This document shows positions 1,027 to 6,709 of a stretch of 10,527 nt of DNA, piece after piece; within the stretch, counting starts at the first letter, position 1, and each line of letters opens with the position of its first letter. The DNA comes from Rhodoluna sp. Its GTDB lineage: Bacteria; Actinomycetota; Actinomycetes; Actinomycetales; Microbacteriaceae. The stretch covers positions 1 to 10,527 of the forward strand of contig JALQVK010000122.1 in NCBI GenBank assembly GCA_023260375.1, written 5' to 3'. Made by a program: the position numbers and the translations under genes. Below the pieces are notes generated by a model. It saw nothing but the letters and a program-made list of their open reading frames with translations. It ran no database searches and had not been told where the DNA came from.

Positions 1027-3108
1027 TTAAGCGTCGATTTTTTCGGTGTCGAAACTGTCGGCTGAATCGATAATGAAATCTCGACGTGGGGCAACTTCAT
1101 TTCCCATTAGCAATTCAAAAACCTTCTCGGCAGCCACCACGTCTTCAACACGAACTCGTCTAAGAGTTCTTCGTTCCCTATCCATGGTGGTTTCAGCCAA
1201 CTGGTCGGCATCCATCTCACCAAGACCCTTATAGCGCTGAATCGGCTCTTGGTAGCGCTTGCCAGAGGCCGCGAGCTTTGCAAGCACCGCCTCAAGCTCG
1301 GCTTGAGAATAAGTGTACAGAGTGTCGTTTGGCTTAGTTCCAGGATTAATCACCACTACCCGATGGAGCGGTGGCACTGCGGCAAAGACACGGCCAGCCT
1401 CTACCATTGGCTTCATGTAGCGGAAGAACAGGGTAAGTAGCAGCGTACGAATGTGGGCACCGTCAACGTCGGCATCGCTCATAAGGATTACCTTGCCATA
1501 GCGAGCGGCTTCCAACTCAAAACTTCGACCTGAACCAGCACCGATCACCTGGATGATTGAAGCGCATTCGGTGTTCGAGAGCATGTCCGAGACGGAAGCT
1601 TTCTGGACGTTGAGAATTTTTCCTCGGATTGGAAGCAACGCCTGATACTCACTGTTGCGAGCTAGTTTCGCAGTGCCAAGAGCCGAGTCACCCTCAACGA
1701 TGAACAGTTCCGAAACGTCAGTTTCCTGTGTACGACAGTCAACCAGTTTTGTAGGCAGCGAAGAAGACTCGAGTGCGTTTTTACGACGCTGGGTTTCCTT
1801 GTGGGTTCTCGCTGAAATACGAGACTTCATTTCGGCGACGATCTTCTCTAGAAGCAGAGCTGACTGCGATTTGTCATCGCGTTTGCTGCTGGTTAGACGT
1901 TCAGTTAGCGCCTTGGAAACCACGTTAGTAACGATGTTCTTTACAGCAGGCGTGCCGAGGATTTCCTTGGTTTGACCTTCGAACTGCGGTTCAGCCAATC
2001 GCACCGAAACTACGGCGGTAAGGCCAGCCAGGATGTCTTCTTTTTCAACCTTGTCGTTGCCAAGTTTTAGTTTTCGAGCATTGGCGTCAATCTGACCACG
2101 CAATGCCTTCATCAAACCGGCCTCAAAACCTGCGACGTGCGTTCCACCCTTAGGGGTAGCGATTATGTTCACAAAACTCTTGAGTTCGGAGTCGTAACCA
2201 GTTCCCCAGCGAAGCGCGACCTCGACCTGACAGTTTCGTTCAACATCACGAGACACCATGTTTCCGGAGTCGTCTAAGACTGGCACGGTCTCTGTGAAAG
2301 AGCCGTCCCCAACTAATCGCCAAGTGCTGGTTAGCGGGGTGTCCTTGGCTAAAAACTCGGCAAACTCTGAGAGCCCGCCATCGAACTTGAACTTGTGCTC
2401 AACAGGCTCAGTGGGACGTTCGTCGCGAACCGAAAGCGAAAGCCCGCTAACTAGGAAAGCGGTTTGGCGAGCTCGACCAATCAGATCCTCAAGTTCGAAG
2501 TTAGCGTCCTTGATAAAAATCTGTGGGTCGGTCCAGTAGCGCACGCGTGAACCGGTTACGTCCTTGCCCACCTTGCCGATTTCGCGAAGCTTGCTCTCGT
2601 TTTCGAAAGGTGTGAACTTGTTGTCCACCGAGATGCCGTTTGAGTCGTCAAAAACGCCTGGCTCACCACGACGGAATGACATGGCGTATGTCTTTCCGCC
2701 TCGGTCTACTTCGACGTCTAGACGTGCCGAGAGTGCGTTTACAACCGACGCACCCACACCGTGTAACCCACCGGACGCCGCATAGGAACCAGAACCAAAC
2801 TTTCCACCCGCGTGCAACTTGGTGAAAACAACTTCAACTCCGGTAAGGCCAGTTTTTGGCTCAATGTCAACCGGGATTCCACGAGCCTTGTCGCGAACCT
2901 CAACCGAACCGTCCTTATGTAAAACGACGTCGATAGAGTTACCAAATCCTGCAAGAGCTTCATCCACAGAGTTGTCGATTATCTCCCAGAGACAGTGCAT
3001 GAGACCACGGGAATCGGTGGAACCGATGTACATGCCGGGACGCTTGCGAACGGCCTCTAACCCCTCTAGGACGGATAGATGACGGGCTGAGTAATCGTTG
3101 GTTGGCAC
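1027..3108 (-). CDS. parE: DNA topoisomerase IV subunit B (ATPase)
   Basis: This is the ATPase and TOPRIM subunit of topoisomerase IV, 693 aa from the chosen start. Residues 1-25 lead into SARHLSVLEGLEAVRKRPGM, followed by the GHKL ATPase motifs: EIIDNSVDEA (42-51), a RGIP motif, and the ATP lid AGGKFGSGSYAASGGLHGVG. The TOPRIM domain has EGDSALGTAK (472-481), DADVDG (545-550) and QRYKGLGEMD (624-633). EGDSALGTAK, rather than the GyrB-type EGDSAGGSAK, supports ParE. A longer frame reaches an ATG at 3180, but its extra 24 residues are not family-like and have no ribosome binding site. The GTG at 3108 lies directly before the conserved N-terminus and 7 nt after TAGCAT, so I prefer it. One oddity is DKARGIP where the family usually has D-x-G-R-G-I-P. 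The gene diverges from the racemase genes and converges with parC. Confidence 0.93.
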   Translation of the reverse strand: MPTNDYSARHLSVLEGLEAVRKRPGMYIGSTDSRGLMHCLWEIIDNSVDEALAGFGNSIDVVLHKDGSVEVRDKARGIPVDIEPKTGLTGVEVVFTKLHAGGKFGSGSYAASGGLHGVGASVVNALSARLDVEVDRGGKTYAMSFRRGEPGVFDDSNGISVDNKFTPFENESKLREIGKVGKDVTGSRVRYWTDPQIFIKDANFELEDLIGRARQTAFLVSGLSLSVRDERPTEPVEHKFKFDGGLSEFAEFLAKDTPLTSTWRLVGDGSFTETVPVLDDSGNMVSRDVERNCQVEVALRWGTGYDSELKSFVNIIATPKGGTHVAGFEAGLMKALRGQIDANARKLKLGNDKVEKEDILAGLTAVVSVRLAEPQFEGQTKEILGTPAVKNIVTNVVSKALTERLTSSKRDDKSQSALLLEKIVAEMKSRISARTHKETQRRKNALESSSLPTKLVDCRTQETDVSELFIVEGDSALGTAKLARNSEYQALLPIRGKILNVQKASVSDMLSNTECASIIQVIGAGSGRSFELEAARYGKVILMSDADVDGAHIRTLLLTLFFRYMKPMVEAGRVFAAVPPLHRVVVINPGTKPNDTLYTYSQAELEAVLAKLAASGKRYQEPIQRYKGLGEMDADQLAETTMDRERRTLRRVRVEDVVAAEKVFELLMGNEVAPRRDFIIDSADSFDTEKIDA

Positions 3109-3115
3109 AAAGAAG

Positions 3116-3121
3116 ATGCTA
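3116..3121 (-). promoter_or_regulatory. Candidate -10 element for parE (leaderless start)
   Basis: TAGCAT on the minus strand fits the actinobacterial TANNNT -10 consensus and ends 7 nt before the GTG at 3108, the spacing expected if transcription begins at the start codon. No recognisable -35 hexamer lies 16-18 nt upstream (the place reads GCGCCC), and there is no Shine-Dalgarno sequence. This is inferred from spacing only. Confidence 0.35.
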
Positions 3122-3136
3122 GCCGAGGCAGTGCCC

Positions 3137-3169
3137 TTGGGCGCTGACTGACACACTGCTAAATAGACT
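3137..3169 (+). promoter_or_regulatory. Candidate promoter of the racemase gene pair
   Basis: TTGGGC (3137-3142) is followed after 17 nt by TAAATA (3160-3165), which is preceded by TG one base upstream as in an extended -10. An overlapping alternative -10, TAGACT (3164-3169), ends 9 nt before the ATG at 3179. Either would give a leader of only a few nucleotides. GATAGG before the ATG is at best a weak ribosome binding site. The element sits in the 70-bp gap shared with the divergent parE promoter. Confidence 0.4.
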
Positions 3170-3178
3170 GATAGGACC

Positions 3179-3766
3179 ATGAAGAATTCCGTAAGCAGAA
3201 GTGGCCTCAGACGAGAACTACGTTTCTCTAAATCGAAGGTCGAGCGAAACCTCGCAGCTCAGGGATTAAGCCAAGAGTCGGTCAAGCCACTACTTGAAGC
3301 GCTAATGGAGACCAACGGTTTGCTTGGTCTATACGGATCTGAACTTCTACTTCTGGAGAAAGCCTTAGGCCTTAAAACAGGTGAATTGGCTTTAGACCTG
3401 GTTGGAGAATTAGTGTCGGTGAAACTAGTTCCTCAAGGCACGGGTGTCTCATATGGTTATCTCAGCTATACAGCTAATCGTGAAAATTTAGGCCTCGTCG
3501 CAATTGGTTTTTCAGACGGAATTCCTCGCAGTGCAACCAACTCATTCCAGGTCGAAATTGGGGGTAAGCAATTCAAGAGCATTGGACGCATCGCCATGGA
3601 CCAGTGCGTTATCGAATTAGGCGAAGTTAGCCCTCCACTTGGTGCCGAGGTTTCTTTCTTTAACTCAAGTTTCACACTCGCAGATTGGGCAAATGCTTCC
3701 GGGATGACTCCCCTGGAAATATTGGGACGCATCACAGCAAGAGTTTCGAGGGTGTGGGTAGCTTGA
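3179..3766 (+). CDS. Stand-alone alanine racemase C-terminal domain protein
   Basis: This 195-aa protein matches only the beta-barrel C-terminal domain of fold-III alanine racemases, plus the linker before it. From about residue 46 it follows the family: LYG, then LGLKTG (64-68), then VSVKLVPQGTGVSYG (79-93). In full-length Alr the Tyr of this SYG motif (Tyr92 here; Tyr265 in Geobacillus) is the catalytic base donated to the partner subunit. IGFSDG (109-114) replaces the usual IGYADG, and GRIAMDQC (136-143) keeps the Met-Asp-Gln signature. The PLP-binding barrel and its lysine are absent, so the protein cannot be a racemase alone. Residues 1-45 are poorly conserved; RELRFSKSKVERNL may be a remnant of the first Alr strand and helix, which would imply loss of the barrel by internal deletion. 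An alternative start is the ATG at 3305. The stop overlaps the start of the next gene, so the products are probably made together. I infer a subunit of a heteromeric racemase; a decaying remnant is less likely given intact motifs. Confidence 0.8.
   Translation: MKNSVSRSGLRRELRFSKSKVERNLAAQGLSQESVKPLLEALMETNGLLGLYGSELLLLEKALGLKTGELALDLVGELVSVKLVPQGTGVSYGYLSYTANRENLGLVAIGFSDGIPRSATNSFQVEIGGKQFKSIGRIAMDQCVIELGEVSPPLGAEVSFFNSSFTLADWANASGMTPLEILGRITARVSRVWVA
3748..3752 (+). promoter_or_regulatory. Ribosome binding site before the TTG start of the second racemase gene
   Basis: GAGGG inside the end of the upstream gene lies 10 nt before the TTG at 3763. It supports TTG over the GTG at 3754, which would be too close to it. 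The TTG shares two bases with the upstream TGA stop, so translation is likely coupled. Confidence 0.45.
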
Positions 3767-4773
3767 CTGTAACCAAACACATCGATCTTGGGGCTTATCG
3801 CGACAACCTGAAGCATATCGGTTCGCAAATGTCGCCGGCAAAAATTATGGCCGTTATCAAGGCCGATGCTTACGGTCACGGCCTAATTGAGGTCGCAAAA
3901 GCAGCCACCGAGGCTGGGATCGAGTTTTTGGGTGTCCTAGACATCGAAACTGGTCTGAGCCTGAGGAAAGCTGGGGTGGAAACACCGGCTTTCGCTTGGC
4001 TGCACTCCCCTAACTCTGATTTCGCAAGCGCTATTCTCGCGGGCATTGAACTCAGTGCTGGCTCAATTTCAGAGCTCGAACTTATTGCCAAAGCGCCAGG
4101 TCGCGCTCAAGTGCACCTGAAGATTGACACAGGTCTCAGCCGAAATGGTTGTCGCCCAGAGCTTTGGGAGCAGTTCGTTACCAGAGCCATTGAATTGCAA
4201 AGAGGCGGCGAGATCGACGTCGTTGCGGTTTGGTCCCATCTTTCCGGAACCTCAACAGCCGACGATCAAAAAGCCATCGACCTTTTCGAGGTCGCTTTGA
4301 AGCAGGCATCGAAGTTAGGGTTCTCCGGCTACCGTCACATCGCTTCCAGCCCGGCCGCCTTTGCTTTAGAGACGAGTCGATACGACCTAGTTCGAATCGG
4401 GGTAAGCGCTTTTGGCACCTCTCCAATCGCGGGTCGAAAGGCCTCGGAACTTGGGCTAAAAACTCCAATGAAGCTAACCGCAGAGGTTATTTCAGATGGC
4501 GTTATTTCGATTGGTTTCTTGCATGGTTATCTCAGCCAATTAACTGGCCAAGCAGAGGTGGAAATTGGTGGGAAACTCTACAAAATCCTAAAAGTTGGCC
4601 CGCTTGCCTCGACGGTCGAATCCGGCGACTATGAACCAGGAGACTCTGTATTGGTATTCGGCTCAGAAATTGAAATGGCACCGACTGCAGAAGAATTGTG
4701 CGAATTAGTTGGGACTGTGACCGACGAATTATTCACAGGTCTTAAGTCAAACCTAACTACGTACTCGAATTGA
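3763..4773 (+). CDS. alr: Alanine racemase family PLP protein with degenerate C-terminal domain
   Basis: This 336-aa fold-III PLP racemase has a complete barrel: the PLP lysine in VIKADAYGHG (31-40, Lys33), LKIDTGLSRNG (119-129, Arg127), WSHLSG (157-162, His159), HIASSPAA (192-199, Ser196) and VRIG (210-213, Arg211 contacting the pyridine nitrogen). The C-terminal domain departs from the family. VISIGFLHG (247-255) aligns without gaps to VAIGFSDG of the upstream protein as far as the shared VEIGGK, but the preceding segment of about 23 residues holding the catalytic SYG Tyr is missing, and the MDQC motif reads LAST. The neighbour supplies exactly these parts, so a heteromer with a shared active site is the simplest reading. 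Substrate may be alanine or another amino acid such as a diamino acid. The TTG start overlaps the upstream stop; an in-frame start at 3685 would cause a long overlap and is not used. The 3' end overlaps gatD by 21 bp, convergently. Confidence 0.85.
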   Translation: MTVTKHIDLGAYRDNLKHIGSQMSPAKIMAVIKADAYGHGLIEVAKAATEAGIEFLGVLDIETGLSLRKAGVETPAFAWLHSPNSDFASAILAGIELSAGSISELELIAKAPGRAQVHLKIDTGLSRNGCRPELWEQFVTRAIELQRGGEIDVVAVWSHLSGTSTADDQKAIDLFEVALKQASKLGFSGYRHIASSPAAFALETSRYDLVRIGVSAFGTSPIAGRKASELGLKTPMKLTAEVISDGVISIGFLHGYLSQLTGQAEVEIGGKLYKILKVGPLASTVESGDYEPGDSVLVFGSEIEMAPTAEELCELVGTVTDELFTGLKSNLTTYSN

Positions 4774-5460
4774 GATTGCTTTTCTAGCTTTACTAGCGAG
4801 TGAGTCCAAAGTGCGAAGGGAACTTGACTTCTCCAGCTTCGGGAAAACCCAAGAAATCAGCAAGTCAGCAAGCTGAGGATTCATTGGTAGCAATGGGCCT
4901 TGCACATTGCTCGCCATTACCTTTCCGTCGGAATAACCGTCCAGATAACCAATTAGCGCTTTTTCATCCGAAGCCTGGACTGTGGCGATTTCAAAACCGG
5001 CATGACCTCGACTTATTGCACGGTTCGAGTTAATAAACCCGGCAATCCCCTTGGTCAATTCGACTTCGCCAACAAGATAGTTCGGCGTAATTGAATGGGT
5101 CGTGTTCGTAAGCCCGAGACCCTGGATGAAATCGCCATCGGTCAATTGAAGTCCCTGAGAAATCAAATCGAAACCGCTGCCCACTGCAAGAACTTTGGTT
5201 CCATCGGTAACCCAGCGGTGCAATAAATCTCCCTTTGAAGCTAAATCCTCGGCAGCAACTTTGGTTGCGCCTAGTGTTCCTGAACCGAGGAAGACAATGT
5301 GTGGACGCTTGGTAGGAAGCGGTTCGGAAAGTTCGACGTTCAAAATGCGAACTTTCAGGCCAAAATTGGCTGCGCGAACTTTGAGAGCGATTAGATTACC
5401 AACCTCACCGTTCAACTTGAGGGTATTCGGGTAGAGATGAAGAATAGCTAGCTCAGCCAT
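4753..5460 (-). CDS. gatD: GatD-like class I glutamine amidotransferase subunit, catalytic residues lost
   Basis: This 235-aa protein belongs to the CobB/CobQ-type GATase family of GatD, the glutaminase partner of MurT in lipid II isoglutaminyl synthase, which amidates the D-Glu alpha-carboxyl of the peptidoglycan stem. Family features are LHLYPNTLKLNGEVGN near the N-terminus, the VFLGSGTLGA region, FINSNRAISRGHAGFE, and GPLLPMNPQLADLL near the C-terminus. Both key residues are replaced. The nucleophile elbow, normally AVCAGYQ, reads AVGSGFD, with Gly94 where S. aureus GatD has Cys94 (codon GGC at 5179-5181). The usual LHGPLLPKNP reads VQGPLLPMNP, with Gln187 for His (codon CAA at 4900-4902). 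The protein has no cysteine at all. It should not hydrolyse glutamine; a scaffold or docking role for MurT is inferred. The ATG at 5460 is chosen over the GTG at 5466 because GGAGGG lies 5 nt upstream. It overlaps murT by 8 bp (ATGGCTGA). Confidence 0.85.
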   Translation of the reverse strand: MAELAILHLYPNTLKLNGEVGNLIALKVRAANFGLKVRILNVELSEPLPTKRPHIVFLGSGTLGATKVAAEDLASKGDLLHRWVTDGTKVLAVGSGFDLISQGLQLTDGDFIQGLGLTNTTHSITPNYLVGEVELTKGIAGFINSNRAISRGHAGFEIATVQASDEKALIGYLDGYSDGKVMASNVQGPLLPMNPQLADLLISWVFPKLEKSSSLRTLDSLASKARKAISIRVRS

Positions 5461-6709
5461 TGCCACCCTCCAAATCCAAGAGTCCCAACTTCTTTCTCAA
5501 CCACATCATCTGCTCATAGTTCACAATTGCGGTTTTTTCATCACCAGGAAGTCCCAAGAAATATTCGAGAGCATCCGACTCCGATTCGATCAACTTCCCG
5601 AACTTGATTCCTTCGTAGGCTAATCGCGTTGCCCACTGGTACGTTTTGGTTCCGGAAATAACGTCTACCTTAGAAAGCTTTCCAAGGTCAATGTCGTAAA
5701 TCCAAGATGGATCGGGGGTTCCTTCATCGACCGAAATCCAAACTCGTTTCGGTGAGACGTCTAACGCATCTAGGTTTGCTTGCAAACTCGGAAGATTCTT
5801 CATCATGATGATCTCGAGTTTTTGTCCACGAGTCTCGATAATTTCCCCTCGACCATAGACCGCAGGAAGTGAGGAAATCGCCTTTGCAGCCATTGTTTCC
5901 GAGAACTTTTCAACCAAGATTTGTTTTGCAAAGGCAATTGCCAGAGCTGCATCAACCGCATAGTGCAAACCTGGGGCGGGCAAGGTGATCGCGAATGGCT
6001 TGGCGCCTAAAGAAATTGTCGCTTTAGTGCCTTTTGCCGTCTCTAACGTGGCTGCAAGCTTCAAATTGGAATCGTCATTCGAGAAGTCTGGTGCCGCAAG
6101 AATTCCATGCGCTGCCGACTTTAGCGCTTTCTGCGATAGATAAACGCCGTGTGCGCTAAGTCGTTGAGAATGTTTCAAAGCCAACCGTTCCGTGTTTCGG
6201 TCGGAACCGTTAACCATGATGAGGTCTGTGGTTAGTGTTGCCAAGTCGTCGAGATAATCGAACACTTCTTCAGGTGAATGGAATCGGTTCAACTGATCCA
6301 GCTGAATGTTGGTGAGAAGAAGCCCATTTGGTGCTACCTTCGCAGCGATTAGCTTTCCATAAGCCTCATCTACTTCGAGGATTGCAACATCGTGCTGCAG
6401 TTTCCCGAGCAAATTCACGTCTGCAAGCAACGCGGAGGCTAGACCTTGAGGTAGGTTACCGCCGGCAGGATTTGAGAGTACTCTAAGGCCGTGCTCCCGT
6501 AGAACCCTAACCAGCATCGCTGTCGTGGTTGATTTTCCATTAGAACCGGAAACAAAATAAATCCCAGACGACATGCGTCCAAGGGTCTTTTGAAGGAACT
6601 TTGGCTGAATCATCAGGGCGATTCGACCGGGAACCGCTGAACCTCCGCCACGCAGCCTAAGGACAAAGCGAAGTGCCTTGCCCACCAGTACTGCTAGCGG
6701 TGTAAGCAT
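5453..6709 (-). CDS. murT: MurT-like Mur ligase family protein without zinc ribbon
   Basis: This 418-aa protein is a Mur ligase of the MurT type, which activates the D-Glu alpha-carboxyl of lipid II with ATP. The P-loop is GSNGKSTT (55-62), followed by NPAGGNLPQG (80-89), the acidic LEVDE (111-115), NIQLDQLNRF (134-143) and DAALAIA (253-259). PDPSWIYDID (332-341) corresponds to the family D-x-S-W-I-W-D motif, whose Asp completes the GatD triad. Differences from the family: no cysteine anywhere, so the Cys4 zinc ribbon usually inserted in the central domain (expected about 195-245) is gone, and the usual KNPAG-N motif reads KNLPSLQAN (304-312). The nucleotide site looks intact, so an ATP-dependent ligase acting on a carboxylate remains likely, but the nitrogen donor is unclear given the defective GatD. 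The start overlaps the rpoD stop (TAATG), and gatD follows with overlap, making a tightly coupled operon. Confidence 0.85.
   Translation of the reverse strand: MLTPLAVLVGKALRFVLRLRGGGSAVPGRIALMIQPKFLQKTLGRMSSGIYFVSGSNGKSTTTAMLVRVLREHGLRVLSNPAGGNLPQGLASALLADVNLLGKLQHDVAILEVDEAYGKLIAAKVAPNGLLLTNIQLDQLNRFHSPEEVFDYLDDLATLTTDLIMVNGSDRNTERLALKHSQRLSAHGVYLSQKALKSAAHGILAAPDFSNDDSNLKLAATLETAKGTKATISLGAKPFAITLPAPGLHYAVDAALAIAFAKQILVEKFSETMAAKAISSLPAVYGRGEIIETRGQKLEIIMMKNLPSLQANLDALDVSPKRVWISVDEGTPDPSWIYDIDLGKLSKVDVISGTKTYQWATRLAYEGIKFGKLIESESDALEYFLGLPGDEKTAIVNYEQMMWLRKKLGLLDLEGGNG
5466..5471 (-). promoter_or_regulatory. Ribosome binding site of gatD
   Basis: GGAGGG on the minus strand, 5 nt before the ATG at 5460 and inside the end of murT, is the best Shine-Dalgarno sequence in the window. 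It decides the ATG start over the GTG at 5466, which it overlaps. Confidence 0.75.

Follow-up and report, generated by a model that had tools for sequence, protein, structure and literature searches.

Two overlapping genes of Rhodoluna sp. probably encode the complementary halves of an alanine racemase-type enzyme that recurs across the Microbacteriaceae

Alanine racemase (Alr) makes D-alanine for cell walls; it is a symmetric homodimer and a drug target. In the homodimeric enzymes of fold type III (1VFH, 1XFC and 1SFT), each active site takes its lysine from one subunit and its catalytic tyrosine from the other, and Tyr354 sits on the subunit that provides the lysine; the replacement of Tyr354 bears on specificity (available part of PMC3485190, citing Patrick et al. 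2002 for the last point). Lyr and Bar share the Alr fold and, according to the same part of that article, have Tyr354 replaced (Thr391 and Ala393), which leaves more room. A different kind of association is that of the trypanosomatid prozymes, in which the active AdoMetDC or deoxyhypusine synthase (DHS) consists of one chain plus a degenerate paralogue (available part of PMC3663545). No description of a heteromeric Alr was found in a literature search among the matches listed, subscription journals being mostly outside it, and this agrees with the preliminary description of the locus studied here, whose author knew of no described case. The terms "gene fission" and "alanine racemase" occur together in one article of those listed (PMC3571937), whose available part concerns an alr-yjeE fusion.

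The window, which is the whole stretch of 10,527 nucleotides that was analysed, belongs to a Rhodoluna sp. genome of 199 contigs (1.14 Mb, 73% complete). It contains on the forward strand a gene for a barrel-less chain with an Alr C-terminal domain (UP, 3179..3766, 195 aa) and a gene for an Alr barrel chain carrying the PLP lysine (DOWN, 3763..4773, 336 aa from a TTG start, with GTG at 3754 as the alternative start), so arranged that the UP stop codon (3764-3766) overlaps the DOWN start. A divergent parE/gyrB-like gene (1027..3180, reverse strand) lies on one side, and on the other there is a convergent gatD-murT-rpoD run beginning with a gatD-like gene whose product misses the glutaminase Cys (4753..5466, reverse strand) and a murT-like gene (5453..6709, reverse strand). 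A sequencing or assembly error was ruled out, as independent named assemblies show the identical pair and the same overlap.

In profile searches, Ala_racemase_C (PF00842) was the only match of UP (residues 72-192, 95.7 bits), and no Ala_racemase_N (PF01168) match, which would denote the PLP barrel of Alr, was obtained at an E of 0.001. The C-terminal domain of UP contains the catalytic tyrosine as Tyr92 (3452..3454, forward strand, corresponding to Tyr265' of Geobacillus Alr) and, further on, Met140-Asp141-Gln142 (3596..3604, forward strand, with Met140 and Asp141 corresponding to Met312' and Asp313'). DOWN matched all the 220 positions of Ala_racemase_N with 164 bits, and its barrel has Lys33 (3859..3861), Arg127 (4141..4143), His159 (4237..4239) and Arg211 (4393..4395), all on the forward strand, at the positions of the PLP Lys39, Arg136, His166 and Arg219 of Alr. 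The Ala_racemase_C match of DOWN starts only at profile position 35 (30.7 bits), indicating that the segment with the SYG tyrosine is absent, and the score of DOWN against TIGR00492 (157.8) is below the family cut-off of 168. All these residues, as well as the absence of the SYG tyrosine from DOWN, had been proposed in the preliminary description and were confirmed, the residues being also conserved. The same description did not mention the position of Tyr354, which is occupied by Asp321 in DOWN (4723..4725, forward strand) and by Leu in UP. Its statement that UP has no PLP barrel agrees with the lack of a PF01168 match; it has to be qualified because an apparent remnant of the Alr N-terminus, LRRELRFS...NL, was recognised by eye against the UP homologues, and because distant homologues keep a PLP-loop motif devoid of the lysine.

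Taken together, UP and DOWN hold the full catalytic set of Alr divided as at the interface of the Alr dimer, without Tyr354, which contributes to the restriction to alanine, and alanine racemases were foremost among the PDB matches of both. The comparison of the sequences makes it very probable that the two proteins are subunits of an obligate heteromeric Alr-type racemase with one composite site per heterodimer. DOWN would give the PLP barrel with Lys33 as one base, the residues Arg127, His159 and Arg211, and Asp321 as residue 354, and UP would give in trans Tyr92 as the second base together with Met140 and Asp141, as the partner subunit does in the Alr homodimer. The second site of an ordinary dimer would be gone, UP being without barrel and DOWN without tyrosine loop, and its loss on both sides would explain which parts each chain has dropped. 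We infer both the assembly of UP with DOWN and, given the complete set of catalytic residues, racemisation. DOWN might conceivably also perform single-base PLP chemistry by itself. The pair has in common with homodimeric Alr the two domains and the origin of lysine and tyrosine in different subunits, but its bases would lie on two gene products, a dimer would have a single site where Alr has two, and residue 354 is acidic. Lyr and Bar are homodimeric and have both bases on one chain, whereas in the pair the bases are separated, and DOWN proteins carry Asp or Glu instead of the small residue that replaces Tyr354 in those two enzymes. In the prozyme systems, as far as the available part of PMC3663545 goes, a dead paralogue activates its partner; here, in contrast, both chains are incomplete, with one catalytic base each.

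The conservation of this partition was studied at two levels. A search of 5.8 billion proteins with UP yielded 103 relatives, nearly all of 153-195 aa, and the close UP alignment (103 rows) comprised these relatives, minus the outsider P0103, plus the window protein; the close DOWN alignment (76 rows) comprised 75 relatives of at least 48% identity and the window protein. Tyr92 was present in all the 103 UP rows and MDQ in the 102 rows reaching the position. For DOWN, Lys33 was found in the 75 rows reaching it, Arg127, His159 and Arg211 each in 76/76, and Asp at residue 321 in the 74 rows that extend so far; DOWN also has C-terminal motifs of its own, LHG and TDELFTGLK, that are conserved in close relatives. 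The family-wide alignment contained 39 UP and 36 DOWN sequences, together with 19 sequences of intact alr1 and 11 of intact alr2, the two copies that occur in tandem in some other genera. In it, Lys39 occurs in 36/36 DOWN and 0/39 UP, and Arg136, His166 and Arg219 in 36/36 DOWN each, these positions being absent or free in UP. Conversely, Tyr265' is found in 39/39 UP and 0/36 DOWN (35 gaps and one Gly), and Met312' in 39/39 UP and 1/36 DOWN. Asp313' (36/39 UP, 25/36 DOWN) does not separate the chains. Residue 354 is acidic in every DOWN (29 Asp, 7 Glu) and mixed in UP; it is Tyr in 18/19 intact alr1 and acidic in 11/11 intact alr2 (8 Asp, 3 Glu). Both the lysine/tyrosine partition and the fixation of residue 354 on the barrel side are as predicted by one composite site per heterodimer. 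Of the 961 relatives of a Leifsonia UP, the 120 best listed all had the tyrosine and the methionine and none had the lysine; in Leifsonia, the sources annotate UP either as "alanine racemase" or as "alanine racemase C-terminal domain-containing protein".

Most UP proteins of other genera keep a barrel stump, and its PLP lysine is changed to Arg in 29 of the 39 rows, as in DLRADAYGHG. Those of three loci (L216, L227 and L251) have preserved almost the entire barrel, though not its PLP lysine, and are apparently an early stage of the split; judged by their sequences, the UP lengths form a graded series from the full chain to the trimmed form of the window. The DOWN protein of locus L203 (G037) has retained the C-domain segment with Gly at the position of the catalytic tyrosine, evidencing that the tyrosine can be lost without a deletion.

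These long degenerate barrels also fit a view of UP as an activating or stabilising pseudo-subunit, comparable to a prozyme, that would lift the activity of DOWN allosterically with no use of its tyrosine in catalysis, and there is precedent for strong effects of this kind, the dead paralogues of trypanosomatids activating DHS 3000-fold and AdoMetDC 1200-fold (available part of PMC3663545). However, a purely structural role does not need the fixation of Tyr265', Met312' and Asp313' that was counted above in UP, nor does it agree with the loss of the tyrosine and the methionine from DOWN, and we consider this explanation improbable.

The distribution of the heteromeric candidate was surveyed by searching 84 genera of the family, each represented by one genome (G001-G084), with the Pfam profile of the C domain. 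UP and DOWN were adjacent Pfam matches in 24 of the 84 genus representatives, and a twenty-fifth (G015) was recognised by sequence, so that the pair, whose search across Microbacteriaceae the preliminary description had asked for, was observed in 25/84. The first 25-34 profile positions are missing from the DOWN match in 23 of these 24 adjacent pairs; the exception is the already mentioned G037. The UP gene of G012 lies at a contig end, and the DOWN match of G038, truncated by a contig end, is just under the family cut-off. Of the 67 genomes of the window's genus, many of them incomplete, four yielded DOWN, the one of the window included, and UP adjoins it in 4/4; the nearest pair loci (L103-L105) come from metagenome assemblies named Microbacteriaceae or Micrococcales bacterium and belong to this genus. 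As an indirect sign of linkage, the longest contig of 25 out of 102 UP clusters is identical in size to the longest contig of a DOWN cluster. A further full Alr C-domain match outside the pair was present in 23 of the 24 pair-bearing representatives, its intactness having been read in the sequence for some of them only, and also in the genome of the window, where the other complete alr sought by the preliminary description exists, split across two contig ends (G000:C25 and C13). The N-terminal part of this alr is present also on contig C13. Where such a further C domain accompanies the pair, the cell might survive without the pair.

The intact Alr of the window genome and the further C domains of the representatives, as well as the C-terminal motifs peculiar to DOWN, would suit a second alternative, by which DOWN is a stand-alone, lysine-only PLP enzyme of new function and UP a partner of the ordinary Alr. 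It is countered by the side-by-side occurrence of the halves and by the fusion of related halves in nature, and we give it very little credit; moreover, in some genomes UP has no intact Alr to join. Three representatives have a single open frame with doubled C-domain matches, of 629 aa in G020 (locus L301), 660 aa in G049 (L300) and 621 aa in G073 (L302). The order in these fusions is a barrel with the lysine, a C domain without tyrosine segment in which Tyr354 is kept, and then a C domain with the SYG tyrosine and MDQ; the second C domain is preceded, in G020 and G073, by a stump of the barrel whose lysine has become Ser. No Alr C-domain matches other than those of the fusion were obtained in the genomes of G020 and G049. 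The frame of L300 continues into an apparent TsaE domain. The fusions unite the same kinds of halves as the split pair, a lysine barrel without tyrosine and a tyrosine-bearing C domain, and constitute independent evidence that the halves work side by side; they differ from the window type in being one polypeptide, in placing the barrel first, whereas the window has it last, and in keeping Tyr354 instead of an acidic residue.

The genomes without intact Alr are those of Agreia, the genus of G077, and that of G015. Seven of the eight Agreia genomes have exactly four C-domain matches, two full and two without the tyrosine segment, distributed in one window-type pair and a second pair ordered barrel chain then C-domain chain, which coincides with the three fusions in order and polarity. 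The first (alr1) chain of this second pair keeps the lysine, Arg136, His166, Arg219 and Tyr354 and has lost Tyr265; in the second (alr2) chain the lysine is changed to Thr, Tyr265 and Met312 are kept and residue 354 is Gly. The only two full barrels of these seven genomes are each within a tyrosine-less chain, the other barrel matches being stumps, a shorter YggS-looking match and weak matches. Thus, barrel and C-domain scans found no intact Alr in seven of the eight Agreia genomes; the eighth has an intact tandem. The same scans gave no intact Alr in G015 (0.93 Mb in one contig, 98% complete), where the sole barrel match is DOWN and the sole C-domain match is UP. On the evidence of these genomes, the idea that UP serves solely canonical Alr was rejected. 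From its sequences, Agreia apparently manages with no intact Alr at all, in which case a heteromer must serve, unless D-alanine is obtained otherwise; a D-amino acid transaminase could be such an alternative supply.

That UP and DOWN have no function and are what decay has left of a tandem duplication of alr, as the large deletions of both might suggest, is hardly credible, simple decay being ruled out by the conserved partition in close relatives and by the low pN (0.20-0.31 in UP and 0.18-0.30 in DOWN against a saturated pS of 0.77-0.90, among four genomes of the genus to which the window belongs), to which the open frames and the fixed catalytic residues are added. The neutral evolution of the upstream gene that the preliminary description had contemplated is thereby contradicted, and both genes are, on these sequence data, under constraint.

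Regarding the function of the heteromer, the complete alr of the window genome covers D-alanine, which makes the pair a probable second racemase there. The acidic residue replacing Tyr354 hints at another substrate, and the substrate range is perhaps different or wider. A cationic substrate, deduced from the acidity of this residue, is a guess, against which counts that G015 has the pair as its only Alr-like system.

Intact tandem alr1-alr2 genes, recognised as two full Alr C-domain matches separated by about 1.1 kb, were observed in 9 of the 84 genus representatives (the tandem loci are L183-L187, L189, L256-L260 and L299). Both copies keep the lysine and the tyrosine, and each could be a homodimer, unlike UP and DOWN. 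The intact alr2, acidic at residue 354 as counted above, encodes a second intact Alr-like enzyme that may act on another substrate. The 24 pair-bearing and the nine tandem representatives are disjoint (p 0.04, uncorrected for kinship).

Barrel trees grouped DOWN with alr2, its closest relative in the set (SH-aLRT 99, and 90 in another tree), and the Agreia barrel chain fell among alr1, its exact place being weak (57). In the C-domain tree, UP grouped with alr1 from the genera that have the tandem (89/77), and the C-domain chain of Agreia with alr2 (96/90 for that group). The position of UP is only moderately supported, the topology joining UP with alr2 not being rejected (AU p 0.228). DOWN and UP thus seem to descend from different paralogues, DOWN going with alr2 and UP probably with alr1. 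The gene order agrees with this placement of UP, the first gene being alr1-like in both the window-type and the second Agreia locus. DOWN as a single clade was rejected (p 0.0048), with intact alr2 nested inside it, which means that the splitting was repeated, or reversed. Of the earlier proposal of a duplication followed by complementary loss leading to a shared site, the loss and the sharing are backed by the partition, the pairing, the recurrence, the genomes lacking an intact Alr and the fusions; as for the origin, two different paralogues appear to be involved instead of one recent duplication.

A possible scenario, which we advance tentatively and with less than even confidence, starts from an Alr1:Alr2 heterodimer, made now or in the past by the tandem-encoded enzymes of this family, having two unlike sites that were resolved oppositely by complementary loss. 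Site A would consist of barrel 1, with Tyr354, and C domain 2, and site B of barrel 2, with the acidic residue 354, and C domain 1. The window-type pair, in which UP is alr1-like and DOWN alr2-like, would retain only site B; the second Agreia pair, at the alr locus, and the fusions of G020, G049 and G073 would retain only site A, and Agreia would make both racemases as obligate heteromers. Site B would racemise an amino acid other than alanine, or not only alanine, such as a cell-wall diamino acid. The resolution of the heterodimer in two ways would account for the tree pattern and for the opposite polarities.

If the heteromeric reading is true, the locus, along with the second split of opposite polarity and the fused single chains, would illustrate clearly how complementary loss can convert a symmetric enzyme with two sites into an obligate heteromer with only one. 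The split pair would offer a way to test the change from homodimer to heteromer and ready-made half-site enzymes for the study of the two-base mechanism, and the apparent lack of intact Alr in Agreia makes the claim open to a genetic test.

Finally, the neighbourhood of the 38 pair loci other than the window was compared. With some stretches stopping at contig ends, both parE and gatD were found beside 24 of them, only parE beside nine, only gatD beside three and neither beside two (parE in 33/38 and gatD in 27/38). The pair either points at gatD or lies behind it with the same orientation; in L195, L216, L217, L219, L225 and L227 it is co-directional with murT-gatD (gatD-UP-DOWN), not convergent. 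Both orientations relative to gatD indicate that the block was inverted during evolution. Among 23 pair-bearing representatives (G084 outside), murT gave a strong match (>300 bits) in 16 and a contig-end fragment in one, and none at E 1e-30 in six; a close functional tie of the pair to murT is weakened. The GatD-like proteins of the rpoD-murT-gatD-parE neighbourhood (window and L103-L244) lack the glutaminase Cys in 49/49 cases, a few of them having only part of this neighbourhood within the stretch, and have G, A, S, T or N at its position; GatD proteins located elsewhere kept the Cys in 5/5. The substitution C94G kills the activity of S. aureus GatD (available part of PMC6113224) and, therefore, the MurT-GatD of this neighbourhood may ligate something other than ammonia.
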